The translations under genes and the position numbers were made by a program. This document shows positions 2,764 to 42,693 of a stretch of DNA of 43,232 nt, piece by piece. The notes below the pieces were generated by a model. The model was not told the DNA's origin, did not search any database, and saw nothing but the letters and a program-made list of their open reading frames with translations. The DNA comes from Desulfonema limicola (GTDB lineage Bacteria > Desulfobacterota > Desulfobacteria > Desulfobacterales > RPRI01). The stretch covers positions 1 to 43,232 of the forward strand of contig DYJH01000006.1 in assembly GCA_020723255.1 (NCBI GenBank), written 5' to 3'. How positions within the stretch are numbered: the first letter of the stretch is position 1; every line of letters starts with the position of its first letter.

Positions 2764-4764
2764 TCAGAATTCAAAAACCATTTTTTTCTTTATGGCTATG
2801 ATGCTATCCCTCAATTCGGCAGCCTTTTCAAATTCAAGTTCCTGGGCTGCTTTTTTCATTTCTTTTTCAAGAGTTGATATAATTTCATCTACATTATCTA
2901 TAGATTCGTACTTTGCAATTGCTTCTGATATTTTGTATGCAGCGATTACATCTGATTCAGAAGAATATTCAAACAATGGCATAATGGCTTTTTCAATGCT
3001 CGCAGGGGTTATGCCATGTTTTTTATTAAATGACTTTTGGATTTTTCTGCGCCTGTTTGTCTCGTTTATAGCATGCCGCATTGAATTTGTTACGACATCG
3101 CTGTACATTATTATACTGCCGTTTATATTCCTTGCCGCCCGCCCGCAAGTTTGTATGAGCGATCTTGCCGAACGGAGAAAACCTTCTTTGTCGGCATCCA
3201 GCACAGCAACAAGTGAAACTTCGGGGATATCCAGCCCTTCTCTTAATAAATTTATACCGACAAGCACATCGAATATTCCCTTTCTGAGATCTCGGATAAT
3301 TTCCATTCTTTCAAGTGTTCCTATGTCCGAATGAAGATATCTCACTTTTATGCCCAAATCCGAATAATATTCGGTCAAATCTTCAGCCATGCGTTTTGTC
3401 AGAGTAGTTATCAGCACTCTTTCATTCTTACTTGTCCGTGCGAGAATCTCTTCGAAAAGATCGTCCACCTGGTTTTTGGCGCTTTTCACATGAATAGGAG
3501 GATCTAAAAGCCCTGTTGGTCTTGCAATAAGCTCTGCAATTGAGTCTTTCCCCTTTTCAAGCTCAAAATCCGCCGGGGTGGCTGATACATATATGACCTG
3601 AGATATTCTTGATTCAAATTCATCAAATCTGAGAGGCCGGTTATCAAGAGCAGAGGGAAGCCTGAACCCGTAATCAACAAGGGTTTCTTTTCTCGATCTG
3701 TCGCCTTTATACATTCCGTTAAGTTGCGGAACGCTTATATGGCTTTCATCTATGAATAGTAAGTAATCTTTCGGAAAATAATCCAGAAGGGTAGGGGGGG
3801 CTTCTCCGGGAGATCTTCCGGTTAAATGCCTTGAGTAGTTTTCTATTCCGTTGCAGTATCCGATTTCCTGCATCATTTCGACATCAAAATGAGTTCTTTC
3901 TTCTATTCTTTGCGCTTCAATATATTTTTTTTCATTTCTGAAAAACTCTATTCTTTCTTTGAGTTCAAGCAATATGCTCTCAATAGCTCTTTGAAGAGTT
4001 ATTTTCTGGGTAACATAGTGGCTGGCTGGAAATATGGTTATGCTGCTCAGGCTTTTTGTGATCGTTCCTTTCAGCGGGTCAATTTCCGAAATATCTTCAA
4101 CCTCATCGCCGAAAAAATTTATCCTGATTGCTTTATTTTCTTCGTAAGCAGGAAATATTTCCACTCTGTCGCCTCTGACCCTGAAGCTTCCTCTGAAAAA
4201 GTCTATGTCATTTCTTTCATATTGCATTTCTATCAGATTTTTTAAAAATTTGTCCCTGTCGAGTTCCATGTTTTTTTCAGTATAAACTCTCATGGAAAGA
4301 TAATCTTCAGGAGCGCCGAGCCCGAATATGCATGATACACTCGCAACGATTATCACATCTCTTCTGGAAAGAACCGAACGTGTGGCGGAATGCCTTAATT
4401 TATCTATCATATCATTGATGGATGAGTCTTTCTGGATATAGGTATCGCTTGAAGGGATATAGGCTTCAGGCTGGTAGTAGTCATAATAGCTCACAAAATA
4501 TTCCACAGCATTTTCCGGAAACAATAATTTAAACTCACTGTATAATTGAGCAGCCAGAGTTTTATTCGGCGCAATCACAAGAGTGGGTTTGCCGGTGTTT
4601 GCAATAACATTTGCCATCGTAAATGTTTTTCCGGAGCCTGTTACCCCAAGAAGCACCTGATGTTTTTTACCGGATTCTATGCCTGAGCTTAACAGTTTTA
4701 TTGCATCGGGCTGGCCGCCCTTTGGAGTGTAATCTGATATTAATTTAAAGTCATTCATCAACAA
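2764..4764 (-). CDS. uvrB: UvrABC excinuclease subunit B
   Basis: 666 aa; [29 protein letters not shown] beta-hairpin, helicase motifs, C-terminal UVR motif. Confidence 0.98.
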
Positions 4765-4800
4765 TAAAATTTGATATTTGATGTTTGAAATTTGAAATCT

Positions 4801-6231
4801 TTAGGTATTGAACTTCCATATGCTTCCTTCCGGCCTGTCTTCAATTATAATATCCATGCCGGCAAGCCTGACTCTTATCTGGTCAGCCTTTTTCCAGTCT
4901 TTCGCTTTTCTTGCTTCAAACCGTTCTTTTACCATGGCATCGATTAAAGACGAATCAATTCCCTTTTTTCCAATAAATTTGGTTTTTTTCTTGTTAAAAT
5001 ATGTTTCAGATGTTTCGGAAAGAATGCCTACGACATTTCCAATTTTGCGTATGTCCGCATAAATTGAATTAATAGGGGAATGCACTCGCTGCTGCGGATC
5101 ATCAAGCAACCGGTTAATATGGCGAATAGCGTCAAACAGATATCCGATGCCTTTTGCAGTGTTAAAATCATCATCCATAGCCTCGCAAAACATTTTCCAG
5201 TAATTTTCCGGATAATCTGTGATGTCATTGATTAGATTGTCTGCAATTTCTTCTATACGTTTTATTGTCGAGTAAATTTTATCAAGTGCGGATTCGGATT
5301 CATCCATTGCCTTGTCCGTAAAATCTATCGGGCTTCTGTAATGATTGGACAGTAGAAAGAGACGAACTGAATCAGGATGATATGATTTAAGAATATCTTT
5401 AATCAGAAGAAAATTTCCAAGAGATTTCGACATTTTTTCATGGTTTATATTTACAAAACCATTGTGAACCCAGTATTTCGCAAACGGTTTTTCAAAAGCG
5501 CCTTCCGACTGGGCGATTTCATTTTCGTGATGAGGGAAAATAAGATCCTTTCCTCCTCCATGAATATCAAAGGTTTCCCCAAGATAGGCGCTGCTCATTG
5601 CCGAGCATTCAATATGCCAGCCGGGCCTCCCTTTACCCCACGGGCTGTCCCAGCACGGTTCGCCCGGCTTTTGAGATTTCCACAGAGCGAAATCAAAGGG
5701 ATTTTTCTTTCTTTCATCTATATCCACTCTGGCTCCTGCCTCCATATCTTCAAGCTTACGCCCTGAAAGTTTTCCGTAATTTTTAAATTTATCAATAGAA
5801 TAGAATATATCCCCGTTTATCCTGTATGCTATTTCTTTCTCCAGCAATATTTCAATTAATGCTATTATCTTATCGATATGTTCGGTCGCTTTAGGCTCTA
5901 TTGTAGCTCTTTCAATATTTAAGGCGTCCAAGTCTTCGTAAAATTCCCTGATGTATTTTTCCGCAACTTGATAAGAATCTATGCCAAGTTCTTCTGCCCG
6001 TTTTATTATCTTGTCATCCACATCGGTGAAATTTCTTACATAAGTCACATCATAGCCGGTTGCCCTGAAGTATTTTAAAATTACATCAAAAACTATAACT
6101 GATCTTGCATGTCCGATGTGGCTAGAATCGTATACGGTCGGGCCGCATACATACATTGCTACCTTGCCGGGGTTAACAGGTATAAAGGGGACTTTCTTAC
6201 TTTCCATTGTATTATAAATACGAAGGGACAT
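4801..6231 (-). CDS. cysS: Cysteinyl-tRNA synthetase
   Basis: 476 aa; MYVCGPTVYDSSHIGHARS, GRPGWHIECSAMS, KMSKSLGNF. Confidence 0.98.
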   Translation of the reverse strand: MSLRIYNTMESKKVPFIPVNPGKVAMYVCGPTVYDSSHIGHARSVIVFDVILKYFRATGYDVTYVRNFTDVDDKIIKRAEELGIDSYQVAEKYIREFYEDLDALNIERATIEPKATEHIDKIIALIEILLEKEIAYRINGDIFYSIDKFKNYGKLSGRKLEDMEAGARVDIDERKKNPFDFALWKSQKPGEPCWDSPWGKGRPGWHIECSAMSSAYLGETFDIHGGGKDLIFPHHENEIAQSEGAFEKPFAKYWVHNGFVNINHEKMSKSLGNFLLIKDILKSYHPDSVRLFLLSNHYRSPIDFTDKAMDESESALDKIYSTIKRIEEIADNLINDITDYPENYWKMFCEAMDDDFNTAKGIGYLFDAIRHINRLLDDPQQRVHSPINSIYADIRKIGNVVGILSETSETYFNKKKTKFIGKKGIDSSLIDAMVKERFEARKAKDWKKADQIRVRLAGMDIIIEDRPEGSIWKFNT

Positions 6232-36969: not shown

Positions 36970-38176
36970 ATGGCGACATTTTCCTATGAGTGCATAAGTG
37001 ACACCGGCGCTGTCATATCCGGAACTATCGAAGCCGATACCGCGGCAATGGCAGAATATCTGTTGATCGGCAAAGGCTATATCCCCATCAAGATTGCCAC
37101 AGACAAAACAAAGGAATCTTTCCTGAATCGATTTAACGAAAGGTTTGGAAAGCTTGACCCGCGAGAACTTATCCTTTTTACGAAACAATTCCGCTCCATG
37201 CTTCATGCGGGTGTGCCTATTCTCCGGCTATTGCAGGTTTTGGAAGCGCAGACGGAGAACAAGGTCTTGAAACTCGTTGTAGTGCGCATGGTGCGGGATA
37301 TCAAAGAGGGTTCCACCCTGTACGAAGCCATGGAAAAACATCCGTCGGTTTTCTCCCCGTTGTACCGCAGCATGGTGCGGGCAGGCGAAATGAGCGGCGC
37401 TCTGCCGGAGGTGCTTAGACGGCTCGTTTACATAATCGAGCATGAAACGAAGATCAGATCAGACATCAGGTCTGCACTTCAGTACCCCAAGATGGTGGTG
37501 TTCGCTCTGGGCGGGGCTTTTTTCGTTCTGCTGACCTTTGTCATCCCGAAGTTTGTAACCATATTTGACAAGGCTGGTATCGCGCTTCCCTTGCCAACAA
37601 AGATTGCCATGCACATGTACCAGTTGCTTGTGAACTATTGGTATCTGATTATCGCTGCAGTAGCCGGCCTCATCTTCGGTTTGCGGGCATATTTCAAGAC
37701 CGGCGCAGGCCGGTTGGTCAAAGACGCCTTTCTGCTCAGAATGCCGATTTTAGGACCTCTCTTCCAGAAGGCGGCCATGTCGCGTTTTGCCAGCATTTTT
37801 GCCATCCTTCATTCCAGCGGGGTGCCGGTAATGACTTCTATGAGCATCCTCTCCGAAGTCATTGGCAATGCTTCAATTTCCAGGGATTTTGAACGCGTGC
37901 GCCAGCAGATGGAAGGAGGGCAGGGCATTGCGGGGCAGCTCCAGGCACTTTACGCCCATGGTTGTCGATATGATTGCGATTGGCGAGGAGACAGGCAACA
38001 TAGAAGAGATGCTGAGGGAAATCACGGCCCATTATGATGATGAAGTGGCTTATGCAGTTAAGGGTTTGTCGGACGCCGTCGGTCCGATTCTGATTGTGGC
38101 TCTGGCCGCGGTCGTCGGCTTTTTTGCCCTGGCGATTTTTATGCCCATGTGGGATTTAACAAAGTTAGTAAGATAG
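36970..38176 (+). pseudogene. Cluster B PilC/GspF with apparent frameshift near 37930-37950
   Basis: ORF 36970..38037 is GspF to MEGGQGIAG, then loses homology (ALYAHGCRYDCDWRGDRQ); the next frame (ORF 37862..38176) supplies RHFTPMVVDMIAIGEETGNIEEMLREITAHYDDEV...FMPMWDLTKLVR. Confidence 0.85.
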
Positions 38177-38667: not shown

Positions 38668-38708
38668 CATAGAGATAGCTGATCATAACCTGATCAGCTA
38701 TCTCTATG
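38668..38708. other. 18-bp perfect stem / 5-nt loop hairpin downstream of the prepilin
   Basis: CATAGAGATAGCTGATCA 38668-38685; TAACC; TGATCAGCTATCTCTATG 38691-38708; overlaps called start of next ORF. Confidence 0.75.
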
Positions 38709-40757
38709 TTAGCTTCCTTTATGGATATGAAACATTGCCCCTGGTCCGGCCTCTTAACTTACGTCCTGATTGTGTGCGCCATTATCGGTTTGACGATCTT
38801 TGCTTACAAAGGTCTTGGCGGACACCAATTTCTCAATTTTGACGATGACGTTTACGTAGCCACAAATAATCATGTGAAAAACGGCTTCACATGGGAGGGA
38901 CTGAAGTGGGCTTTTACCTTCACTGATGTTTCCTACTGGCAGCCCCTGGCGTTATTGTCCCACATGCTGGATTGCCAGCTTTTTGGCGTGAAACCGGGGC
39001 CCCATCTACTGATGAATCTGATGTTCCACATAGTTAACTCTCTTCTTCTGTTTCTGATTCTTAGGAAAATGACGGGCGCTGAAATCAAGGCCGCCCTGGT
39101 GGCCTTATTATTTGCCCTTCATCCCCTGAACTGCGATTCCATTGCCTGGCTGGCAGAAAGAAAAACCGTTTTGAGTGCCCTGTTTTTTCTGGCGGCGATC
39201 CATACTTACATTTCTTATGCGCAAGGAAAAAGAAATTGGCTCTTTGCCGTTACATTGGGTCTTTATGCCTTAGGTCTGATGAGTAAACCCGCCATTCTTA
39301 CCTTTCCTTTTCTCCTTTTGGTATTGGATTACTGGCCGCTGGGCAGGTTGCGGCATTACGATCCTTATGCTTCCGAGAGTAAAACAGTGTCAAGAGGTCA
39401 TTGGGAAAGATTGGTTGCTTTGTGTAAATCAAACAATGTTTCACTTATCCTGGAGAAAGCGCCTTTTCTTGTTCTATCCCTGCTTTCGGCATCCCTGACC
39501 ATGGCTTCGGTCATGGATGCTCACATGGTGGTCGGTAACCGGCTTATCCCGCTTTCTCTGCGGATTTATAATCTCTTTGTTTCCATTGTGCATTACTTGC
39601 GCAATATCTTCTGGCCGGTCGAATTATCCATTTTCTATCCTTTCCCGAAAACGATTGTCCTGTCAGAGCTGTTTCTGGCGCTGCTGATTGAAGCTTCGGC
39701 AAGCTTTCTGGCTTTTAAAATGAGGAAGGAAAGGCCTTGGCTTTTAGCGGGATGGTGCTGGTTTCTCATCGCCTTGGCGCCAGCCTGCGGCCTGGTACAG
39801 GCGGGTCTATGGCCCGCAATTGCCAACCGTTTCATGTACCTGCCCCTGATGGGGATTTTAGTGATGCTGGTCTGGGAAGGCGACGAACGATTAAAGGGAG
39901 CTTATTCGCGAGTTTTAAAGGTCATTTTATGCAGTGCCTTGCTGATTTTCCTTCTCTCTTTGACCCATCTCCAGAATATCTATTATTCCAATAGTTTTTC
40001 CTTATTTAACCGCTGTCTGAGCGTGGTCGGCAAAAATGAACTGGCGCTCAATAATTTAGGCCAGTCACTGGCTACTTTAGGCCGGGTAAACGAGGCCATG
40101 CAGAATTTTGCTGAGAACATCAAACTTAATCCGATGCAGGCTACATCTTACAGTAATTACGGTACCTGTTTAGTCGCCAAGGGCGATGATCTTCAAGCCA
40201 TCCCCTATTTCCAAAAGGCGATTGCCCTTAATCCCAGGCTGATTGTTCCCTACATACATCTTGGCCTCATACAGAACCGGCGAGGGTATAAAAACGAAGC
40301 GGTAAAGATCATGGAGAAAGCACTGCAAATCGACCAAAATAATTTGGAGGCGCACAATAATTTGGGCGCCATCCTTGCCGAGCAGGGCAAATTTTCTGCA
40401 GCGGCGTCGCATTTCTTATTTGTTTTGAAAGCAGACCCCGCGCATGTACAGGCGAGGCTCAATCTGGCTAGCGCCTATGAAGAGACGGGTCTGTATGCTG
40501 AAGCCATGGTCGAGTACGAAACCCTCGATAAATCATTGACCCGCAACAAGGGCTATGTGCACTATCGAATTGCCCGCCTGTATGCACAAAAGGGTATGTT
40601 CAGGGAATGTGTCAATTACCTATCGGCGGCCCGGAAAGAAAATTTGAAGGTGGGGGAATATATTAAAACAGATAAGAAATTCGACGGTTTTCGAGCATCA
40701 GCGTTTTCTGCGCCATTTCTGGAAGATCAAAAAAAGAGACTTTCCGGGGTTGAATAG
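38706..40757 (+). CDS. Multi-TM GT-C/PMT-like protein with C-terminal TPR repeats (candidate glycosyltransferase)
   Basis: 683 aa; LNFDDDVYVATNNHVKNGFTWEGLKWAFTF, HPLNCDSIAWLAERKTVLSALFFLAAIHTYI, many TMs, then TPRs (NNLGQSLATLGRVNEAMQNFAENIKLNPMQATSYSNYG). Alternative start ATG 38721. Confidence 0.85.
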   Translation: MLASFMDMKHCPWSGLLTYVLIVCAIIGLTIFAYKGLGGHQFLNFDDDVYVATNNHVKNGFTWEGLKWAFTFTDVSYWQPLALLSHMLDCQLFGVKPGPHLLMNLMFHIVNSLLLFLILRKMTGAEIKAALVALLFALHPLNCDSIAWLAERKTVLSALFFLAAIHTYISYAQGKRNWLFAVTLGLYALGLMSKPAILTFPFLLLVLDYWPLGRLRHYDPYASESKTVSRGHWERLVALCKSNNVSLILEKAPFLVLSLLSASLTMASVMDAHMVVGNRLIPLSLRIYNLFVSIVHYLRNIFWPVELSIFYPFPKTIVLSELFLALLIEASASFLAFKMRKERPWLLAGWCWFLIALAPACGLVQAGLWPAIANRFMYLPLMGILVMLVWEGDERLKGAYSRVLKVILCSALLIFLLSLTHLQNIYYSNSFSLFNRCLSVVGKNELALNNLGQSLATLGRVNEAMQNFAENIKLNPMQATSYSNYGTCLVAKGDDLQAIPYFQKAIALNPRLIVPYIHLGLIQNRRGYKNEAVKIMEKALQIDQNNLEAHNNLGAILAEQGKFSAAASHFLFVLKADPAHVQARLNLASAYEETGLYAEAMVEYETLDKSLTRNKGYVHYRIARLYAQKGMFRECVNYLSAARKENLKVGEYIKTDKKFDGFRASAFSAPFLEDQKKRLSGVE

Positions 40758-41180
40758 CGTTGCGGCTTTTGCAGGTATGTTCTAAATAATCCGGTTAATC
40801 TGATTGATCCATGGGGGCTGTGTTCGGAATATAATAATCTATCATTGGGCGAGAGAATAGGAGCGCAAGTACAGGGGCAGTTGGAATATAGTGGACTTAA
40901 ACCTAATACAGGCAAATTGATAACGGTTCAAACACCTAATTTTACCCAAGGCCAACTGGAGGCAATTTCTAAGATTGGTATAGGTAGTGCTCTTATAACT
41001 GGCGGAACAATGTATCTTCCAGAGGGCGCACCAGCAATTGCCTTAGGAATTCCTATTCTATCTGAGGGTTTAACACTTGGTGCGGTTGAATTTATTTTTA
41101 AGTGTGATACAAGTAATATCCCATCCGAATGGGAAGTGTTTGGAAAAGCGGTAAATGGAATTTATAAGAACAGACGGTAA
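40758..41180 (+). pseudogene. Orphan Rhs C-terminal tip: end of Rhs core fused to a putative membrane-active toxin domain
   Basis: In-frame reading before the called ORF (40845..41180) gives RCGFCRYVLNNPVNLIDPWGLCSEYNNLSLGERIGAQVQGQ...; YVLNNPVNLIDPWGL is an Rhs core-terminal motif; the rest of the core is missing. Confidence 0.75.
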
Positions 41181-41188
41181 ATAAACAA

Positions 41189-41398
41189 ATGCATAAAATA
41201 ATAAATTTAATAGAAGCAGGTTTTGGCCTAATAACAGCAGGTTGGATGCTTTTATATTACTTAGGCAAGCTTAATTATAAAGGTGAAAAAGAGGAGAGAA
41301 GGCGAAAAAAGGTTGAAAAATATGGTGTTTTATCAGTTATAGTTATATTAGTTTTAATTATTAGTAGTATATCTTTAATCATATTAACGATAGTCTAA
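41189..41398 (+). CDS. Small two-TM protein, candidate immunity partner of the Rhs tip
   Basis: 69 aa; two hydrophobic segments (FGLITAGWMLLYYLG; VLSVIVILVLIISSISLIILTIV) immediately downstream. Confidence 0.5.
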   Translation: MHKIINLIEAGFGLITAGWMLLYYLGKLNYKGEKEERRRKKVEKYGVLSVIVILVLIISSISLIILTIV

Positions 41399-41538
41399 TG
41401 GAAAAATGCTAAGCAGCTTAAGGTTTTTTCTTTAATCGCTTTTCTGTTTTTTGGGAGGGCGGAGGAAGAATGATAAAATCAGATGCCGCTAACCTTATTG
41501 TTTACGCTCTGCCTGGCGTGAGCCGTTGCTTCTGATTG

Positions 41539-41606
41539 CATAATCTGAATTATCTCGACGCCTTGCAGTACTTTTTGCAGTGTTGGATAATTAAGTTCAG
41601 ATTATG
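41539..41606. repeat. Long intergenic imperfect hairpin (CATAATCTGAATTATC / GATAATTAAGTTCAGATTATG)
   Basis: CATAATCTGAA 41539-41549 pairs with TTCAGATTATG 41596-41606; TTATC 41550-41554 with GATAA 41586-41590. Confidence 0.6.
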
Positions 41607-41666
41607 TAAGAAGATGCAGGGGCCCTGACAAGGGGGTTAAGATGACAGCGGCTACCTTGATGTTTA

Positions 41667-42056
41667 TCATTCCAGAACTTCAACAAATTGGGAATTTCTG
41701 ATAACAGGATCATTGGTAATAAGCGGCAATCCAAGATATCTGGCGGTAGCGGCAATAAGATGGTCGTGCAGTTCCGGAATATCATCAATCTCGGCAGCGG
41801 TTTTAAGAATATCAAAACTAAGCGGCTCAAATTGATAGTTCTGGCTTTTGAAAAGCTCTTCTGTTTGAAGCAGGCTAACATTAATTCTATTTTTTTCAAA
41901 CAAGTAAAGCATCTCCATCAAGACAATTGCCGGAATGATGATAATGCTTTCTCCTCTATCTGCGGACTGATAAGCCCGATGAGATCTTTCATTGATTGTT
42001 TTTTTACCCATCATAATTTTTACAAGAGCCTGAGTATCGGTTACAAAGCTATCCAT
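41667..42056 (-). CDS. PIN-domain toxin (VapC-like)
   Basis: MDSFVTDTQALVKIMMGKK...IIIPAIVLMEMLYLFEK...IPELHDHLIAATARYLGLPLITNDPVIR; ORF track starts at 42077, MDSFVTD at ~42056 is likelier. Confidence 0.88.
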   Translation of the reverse strand: MDSFVTDTQALVKIMMGKKTINERSHRAYQSADRGESIIIIPAIVLMEMLYLFEKNRINVSLLQTEELFKSQNYQFEPLSFDILKTAAEIDDIPELHDHLIAATARYLGLPLITNDPVIRNSQFVEVLE

Positions 42057-42300
42057 TATAAAACTCCTGATCAACATGCTTCCATGTCTGCTGCTTAAAC
42101 TCTTTCAATTTGGAAAGGTCGATATCATGCCCTTTTAGAATTCCTTCAAGTTTGACCAACTTTTTTTCCCCAAGCTTTTTTTTATGCCTCATAAAATCAA
42201 TAAAATTGGCAATATCGCCTAAATCTTGCTCGGAAAAGCCAATCAGCTTGTTGTAAATCTCATGTTTGGTTATAGCTGCCTTATTCATTTTATTCTCCAT
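42049..42300 (-). CDS. Putative antitoxin of the PIN toxin
   Basis: 83 aa, directly upstream of the PIN gene in the same orientation; no confident family assignment. Confidence 0.55.
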   Translation of the reverse strand: MENKMNKAAITKHEIYNKLIGFSEQDLGDIANFIDFMRHKKKLGEKKLVKLEGILKGHDIDLSKLKEFKQQTWKHVDQEFYNG

Positions 42301-42303
42301 CGC

Positions 42304-42693
42304 TTATATTTCTTTTTGAACAGCCAGGTTTTGAAATTTGTTTTTCATGATAAAGGTGTCCAGAATTTCTAAAATTGTTCCTTTATCCTTGTCGCTGAGT
42401 CTGTCAATATCTTCAAGCCTTCTTAAAAGCTCTTTGTCTTTGATATTTACTTTGGCCGGTTTGCCCTGGGCCTCGGAGGCCAAATAATCAAGAGAAACAT
42501 CAAATACATCCGCAAGCTTCATTAGGACTTCGGTAGAGGGAATATTACGTCCTCTTTCATAAGCCGAAACCTGTTTCTGGTGAATCCTCATTTTGCTTCC
42601 GAGCTGCGCTTGTGACCAGTTTTTTTCCTGCCTAAGTTGTTTGATTTTTTCTTTAATAGCCATGCTAAATTCCCTTTCATTATAAAATATCAT
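42304..42693 (-). CDS. XRE-family HTH transcriptional regulator
   Basis: KIKQLRQEKNWSQAQLGSKMRIHQKQVSAYERGRNIPSTEVLMKLADVFDVSLDYLA. Confidence 0.95.
   Translation of the reverse strand: MIFYNEREFSMAIKEKIKQLRQEKNWSQAQLGSKMRIHQKQVSAYERGRNIPSTEVLMKLADVFDVSLDYLASEAQGKPAKVNIKDKELLRRLEDIDRLSDKDKGTILEILDTFIMKNKFQNLAVQKEI

Follow-up and report, generated by a model that had tools for sequence, protein, structure and literature searches.

Immediately behind the stop codon of a GT-C/TPR-type gene, the window (the whole stretch of 43,232 nucleotides that was analysed) carries what looks like the end of an Rhs protein, followed by a small membrane-protein gene. The question is whether these two frames are a toxin tip and its immunity gene that have left an Rhs locus, and in what way such a tip might act. 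The sequence-only reading had proposed an orphan Rhs tip with a membrane-acting toxin/immunity pair; as a whole, it was partly supported.

Layout of the locus

The GT-C/TPR-type gene (38706..40757, + strand; 683 aa; Pfam TPR families, NF047558 at residues 618–664) lies outside the cassette. Past its TAG (40755–40757) the same frame remains open for 140 codons (RCGFCRYVLNNPVNLIDPWGL and the tip) up to a TAA at 41178–41180; the alternative frames across the tip region contain 10 and 17 stops, and the tip frame was kept open in 0 of 2000 base shuffles. The Rhs core-end remnant YVLNNPVNLIDPWGL (40776..40820, +; last 15 codons, motif PxxxxDPxGL; assigned by the match to contig L021, described below, and by DNA conservation) begins 18 bases 3′ of the TAG, with PVNLIDPWGL at 40791–40820 in frame ahead of the tip. 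The tip was found to comprise 119 aa after DPWGL and to end at 41180; the sequence-only reading had recognized the core end correctly and had put the tip at about 115 or 118 aa. It consists of a variable linker (40821..40913, +), in which CSEYNNLSLGERIGAQVQGQLEYSGLK is common to a tip on contig C105 of the same MAG, and of a putative membrane-acting toxin domain of 88 aa with the stop codon (40914..41180, +; assigned by identity to the L021 Rhs tip). The putative two-TM immunity gene (41189..41398, +; 69 aa; assigned by identity to the L021 partner, a two-helix model and further relatives) follows 8 bp further on. No in-frame ATG precedes the tip, and the sole candidate start is a weak TTG at 40845. 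GC content: 41% (tip), 27% (partner), 47% (TPR gene). No Rfam or tRNA features were found in the window.

Two neighbouring regions were also noted. A T2SSF/PilC-type gene (36970–38176) is apparently frameshifted, with T2SSF domain 1 in the ORF 36970–38037 and the C-terminal T2SSF domain in the ORF 37862–38176 in a different frame; it is either a pseudogene or an assembly error. On the other side (41667–42693, − strand) a PIN-domain protein, an 83-aa protein and an RstR-type HTH repressor stand in a row; this trio adjoining the cassette is probably a VapC-like toxin-antitoxin unit.

A homologous pair on an Rhs protein

The NCBIfam Rhs core model matched the window only over its last 16 positions (E 0.031), which is too weak alone, so outside evidence was required. 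A set of 390 genomes (order/class level) was searched, and the best tip match (E 1.6e-24) was the C-terminus of a 1523-aa open frame in genome G251, on contig L021 (JABMQM010000516.1, 5711 bp, Desulfobacteraceae MAG; sequences identical). This frame is rich in YD repeats, contains NHL-type repeats as well, and is cut at its 5′ end by the contig end; it terminates in LYGYVLNNPVNLIDPSGL and the tip and is followed by a gene for a 73-aa protein. Window against L021: core end, 14 of 15 residues identical; tip, 55–58% identical; partner, 57% identity over all 69 residues (E 2e-24); alignment scores 236 (tip) and 187 (partner), where shuffled sequences reached at most 51 and 58. Since an Rhs frame of L021 ends in this tip and is followed by a homologous partner gene, the window tip was taken as an Rhs C-terminus and the 69-aa gene as its conserved partner. 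The proposal of an Rhs core end and tip in frame behind the TPR stop was thus confirmed by the frame, the shuffles and the L021 match; the search for a tip homologue on any Rhs protein, on which it had been made to depend, returned this YD-repeat protein.

The codon positions 1/2/3 match at 0.72/0.73/0.38 in the tip and 0.59/0.77/0.48 in the partner; pairwise dN is 0.37 and 0.39, respectively, with dS of about 2, near saturation. The comparison of these two sequences indicates past purifying selection on tip and partner over their shared history, not necessarily since detachment.

The partner

The 69-aa protein shows hydropathy maxima of 1.67 and 3.19 and gave a two-helix model (pLDDT 79); it is predicted to be an integral membrane protein, and the two-TM membrane-immunity anatomy ascribed to it on first reading was borne out. 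Its assignment to the tip is supported by the pair being kept together in L021. A profile of the two partners retrieved three further strong relatives in the 390 genomes (G259, G003, G007), none of them with a window-type tip; a common signature is found around LNYxGxxExxRR. The G259 copy sits behind a different Rhs tip that has its own small membrane-protein gene. The G003 copy is interrupted by an in-frame TAA and the G007 copy is cut by foreign sequence, and both decayed copies stand behind a sigma-54-type regulator, no tip being nearby. Relatives of the partner therefore persist without the toxin, a pattern as for orphan immunity genes; for such persistence compare PMC10539506 and PMC12744356.

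The tip

By the Kyte-Doolittle scale a single tip segment (LGIPILSEGLTLGAVEFIF) exceeds 1.4, and the hydrophobic region lies around PEGAPxIAxGIP; of the long hydrophobic stretches reported earlier there remains one segment in a moderately hydrophobic tip. The AlphaFold2 model (pLDDT 33) has no confident fold and was too poor for a fold search. The tip family had no match in Pfam, NCBIfam, PHROGs, PADLOC or PDB, no enzyme family signature was found in these family and structure database searches, and no relatives were found in phages, plasmids or viral contigs. A single-sequence scan of the genome contigs gave no tip relative and a search with the two-row tip alignment gave L021 only, so that two members (window, L021) were found in all. 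Profile matches in G111, G575, G647 and G729 (E 0.003–0.007) were chance-like and none was in Rhs context; a match in G131 (29%) was mostly the common core end joined to a different, GIY-YIG-like tip.

Rhs fragments in the same MAG

The sequence-only reading had stated that no Rhs core is nearby. This holds within the window, but genome-wide four truncated Rhs core+tip modules form an array on contig C105 (L009, 1–8754), each core end having a different tip, followed by small genes. Some of these small genes are related in tandem (three similar ones at 3147–4914), and the first C105 tip has a HELGH peptidase-like motif. The C105 core fragments are of another core-end type than that of the window. 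The third module starts 22 bp 3′ of the stop of the preceding gene, to be compared with 18 bp past the TAG in the window, and its tip matches the window linker in 19 of 27 residues (70%; 77% DNA identity over 83 bp). The similar linkers make it probable that the two tips come from a single exchanging pool.

A full-length Rhs protein elsewhere in the same genome was also looked for: neither one nor any RHS repeat above cut-off was found in the fragmented, 87%-complete MAG, only the truncated C105 fragments. With a MAG of this completeness and fragmentation, a main rhs gene may just have escaped the assembly. No rhs gene lies within the window, so the cassette is not downstream of a main rhs gene. 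Such a position is typical of described orphan arrays and not essential to an orphan module.

Other orphans in the order

The core end was searched for at the DNA level (degenerate 35-bp pattern, up to 2 mismatches, reversed pattern as control): 15 matches in 13 of the 390 genomes; 0 for the reversed control. Most matches lie within longer Rhs frames; one array of G052 holds several minimal orphans like that of the window and G094 holds one, with Rhs homology beginning no more than a few codons from YVLN. This suggests, from the aligned borders, that Rhs orphans are cut at a preferred core-end point, with the bias that the search pattern itself demanded that stretch. Two G052 orphans directly follow hairpin terminators of the preceding module.

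The G052 array (L062, contig C44) holds six Rhs tip/immunity cassettes, several with the core end only; most are followed by small hydrophobic genes, and several are separated by similar GGCAGTAGC hairpin terminators. Integron attC sites were considered for these inter-cassette repeats and rejected, as they fold as hairpin terminators (GGCAGTAGC...GCTACTGCC-T run). In G094 (L063, contig C87) two tyrosine-recombinase-like genes (3045–4858) adjoin a small Rhs tip array.

To the right of the window cassette lies a dispersed intergenic repeat (41424..41665, unstranded; ~240 bp) that serves as the right-side marker of the cassette; it has conserved ends and an internal inverted repeat (TTGCATAATCTGAATTATC ... 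GGATAATTAAGTTCAGATTATGTAA) and no match in Rfam. Copies or parts of it were found on the MAG's own contig C214 and in G003, G007 and G052 (83–92% in C214, G007 and G003); it is dispersed in the genome, and an Rhs-specific role was rejected.

It is conceivable, at rather long odds, that the Rhs tip/immunity units of this order move as compact cassettes with a near-fixed left border (~45–55 bp of core end), abutting a preceding gene or terminator and settling outside Rhs loci. If true, tips would here disperse as cassettes, by a route unlike the enterobacterial displacement model with its core fragments of variable length. That several orphans are cut at similar points in any case offers a handle on how tips detach and spread.

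Interpretation and alternatives

The window pair is explained best, and with good confidence, as an orphan (displaced) Rhs C-terminal toxin/immunity cassette: a core remnant of ~45 bp, an intact tip and a conserved partner that stand alone behind an unrelated gene. The explanation draws on the L021 Rhs frame with its tip and homologous partner; on tip-less partner homologues, behind another tip in G259 and decayed in G003 and G007; on the truncated C105 modules, one of them 22 bp past a stop and with a common linker; on the G052 and G094 orphans, whose core ends are cut at almost the same place; on the dN/dS pattern and low GC of tip and partner; and on published precedents for orphan rhs-CT modules and two-TM immunity proteins. 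That tip and partner are an orphan toxin/immunity pair, of putative activity, is very probable from their homology. Membrane action of the putative tip is somewhat favoured, by analogy; it was proposed from the hydrophobic region around PEGAPxIAxGIP, the lack of an enzyme family and the two-helix membrane partner. Counting against the explanation are the lack of a full-length Rhs recipient in the MAG and, for the tip, the low pLDDT, the lack of a database family, the one clearly hydrophobic segment and the finding of only two family members.

Recombination at or close to the conserved boundary between core and tip would have taken the cassette out of its Rhs locus. Having no core and no ATG, only the weak TTG, the tip would be silent here, a spare that recombination could return to a would-be full-length rhs gene carrying a YVLNNPVNLIDP core. 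After delivery on a full-length Rhs protein, it might insert into the target inner membrane and cause depolarisation; the two-helix 69-aa protein would block it at that membrane and, if made, would guard against Rhs attackers bearing a matching tip.

That the tip is a dead remnant and the 69-aa gene alone matters, as an orphan immunity gene kept against Rhs attackers, is rather unlikely as the full explanation and compatible with the orphan cassette as a partial role. The start-less tip and the persistence of tip-less immunity relatives in G259, G003 and G007 agree with it, but the tip frame runs unbroken for 140 codons, the toxin domain is conserved, and the tip-less G003 and G007 copies are themselves decayed. 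Also unlikely is that the hydrophobic region is a pre-toxin or translocation segment only, the tip acting otherwise (for example via the conserved C-terminal DTSNIPSxWEVFG) or being the stump of a longer toxin: only ~25–30 residues remain after that region, both family members end at nearly the same point with the partner gene directly next, and the partner is a predicted integral membrane protein. In favour of this alternative are the modest hydrophobicity of the window tip and the unrelated G131 tip, where, as read from its sequence, a hydrophobic stretch precedes a GIY-YIG nuclease-like region.

A chimeric assembly, in which a cassette from an Rhs locus was falsely joined to the TPR gene, is improbable. 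Rhs core ends are repetitive and assemblies break at them, and N gaps occur in C105 and at the end of contig C142; however, there is no N at the junction, the end of the TPR gene has no similarity to Rhs cores through which the two might have been misjoined, the downstream flank is a repeat dispersed at the genus level and present elsewhere in the same MAG, and the abrupt left borders are similar in other orphans. Readthrough of the stop codon to a TPR-tip fusion protein, also raised on first reading, was unsupported and is scarcely credible: tip and TPR gene share a reading frame, but such placement is a one-in-three event, the end-of-group domain NF047558 (618–664 of 683 residues) gives a native-looking C-terminus and stop, and no such fusion was seen in the relatives of the TPR gene (27–46% in the genus, none closer). 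The orphan cassette is therefore retained as the preferred explanation.

Comparison with known systems

The CDI ionophore immunity proteins (CdiI) are two-helix hairpins of 72–100 residues (PMC11630599), and the 69-aa protein of the window is likewise small and two-helical. The CDI ionophores differ from the window Rhs tip in being delivered by CdiA with a VENN motif, and their toxin is a five-helix bundle, whereas the model of the window tip (pLDDT 33) has no confident fold. In Pseudomonas aeruginosa the pore-forming, depolarising Rhs tip Tse5 is paired with the two-TM immunity protein Tsi5 (PMC9637101). The window similarly combines a short Rhs tip without enzyme signature and a small two-TM partner, and depolarisation was proposed for it on this analogy; the tip is of 119 aa as against 149 aa in Tse5, and no match to any PDB chain was found.

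The closest likeness is to the orphan rhs-CT/rhsI modules of Enterobacteriaceae (PMC2935791, PMC3150448, PMC3967940): the PxxxxDPxGL motif, a start-less detached tip, an immunity gene directly downstream, the occurrence of the tip elsewhere as part of a longer Rhs protein, and low GC. As a rule such modules have no translation start of their own, and recombination can make them active again (PMC3967940, PMC3150448). In Salmonella LT2 the start-less orphan tip regains activity by recombining with the main rhs gene (PMC3967940), and the toxin/immunity pairs encoded by orphan modules in Dickeya and E. coli are functional (PMC3150448). The Salmonella orphan has 522 bp in common with the main rhs gene, whereas the window retains ~15 core codons; unlike the enterobacterial modules, the window cassette stands alone in a T2SS/pilus-type neighbourhood, no main rhs gene having been found. 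The pair thus adds a putative, undescribed toxin/immunity family of the well-known orphan rhs-CT/rhsI kind; it shows that, among uncultured relatives of Desulfobacteraceae, orphan Rhs tips and immunity genes are spreading.
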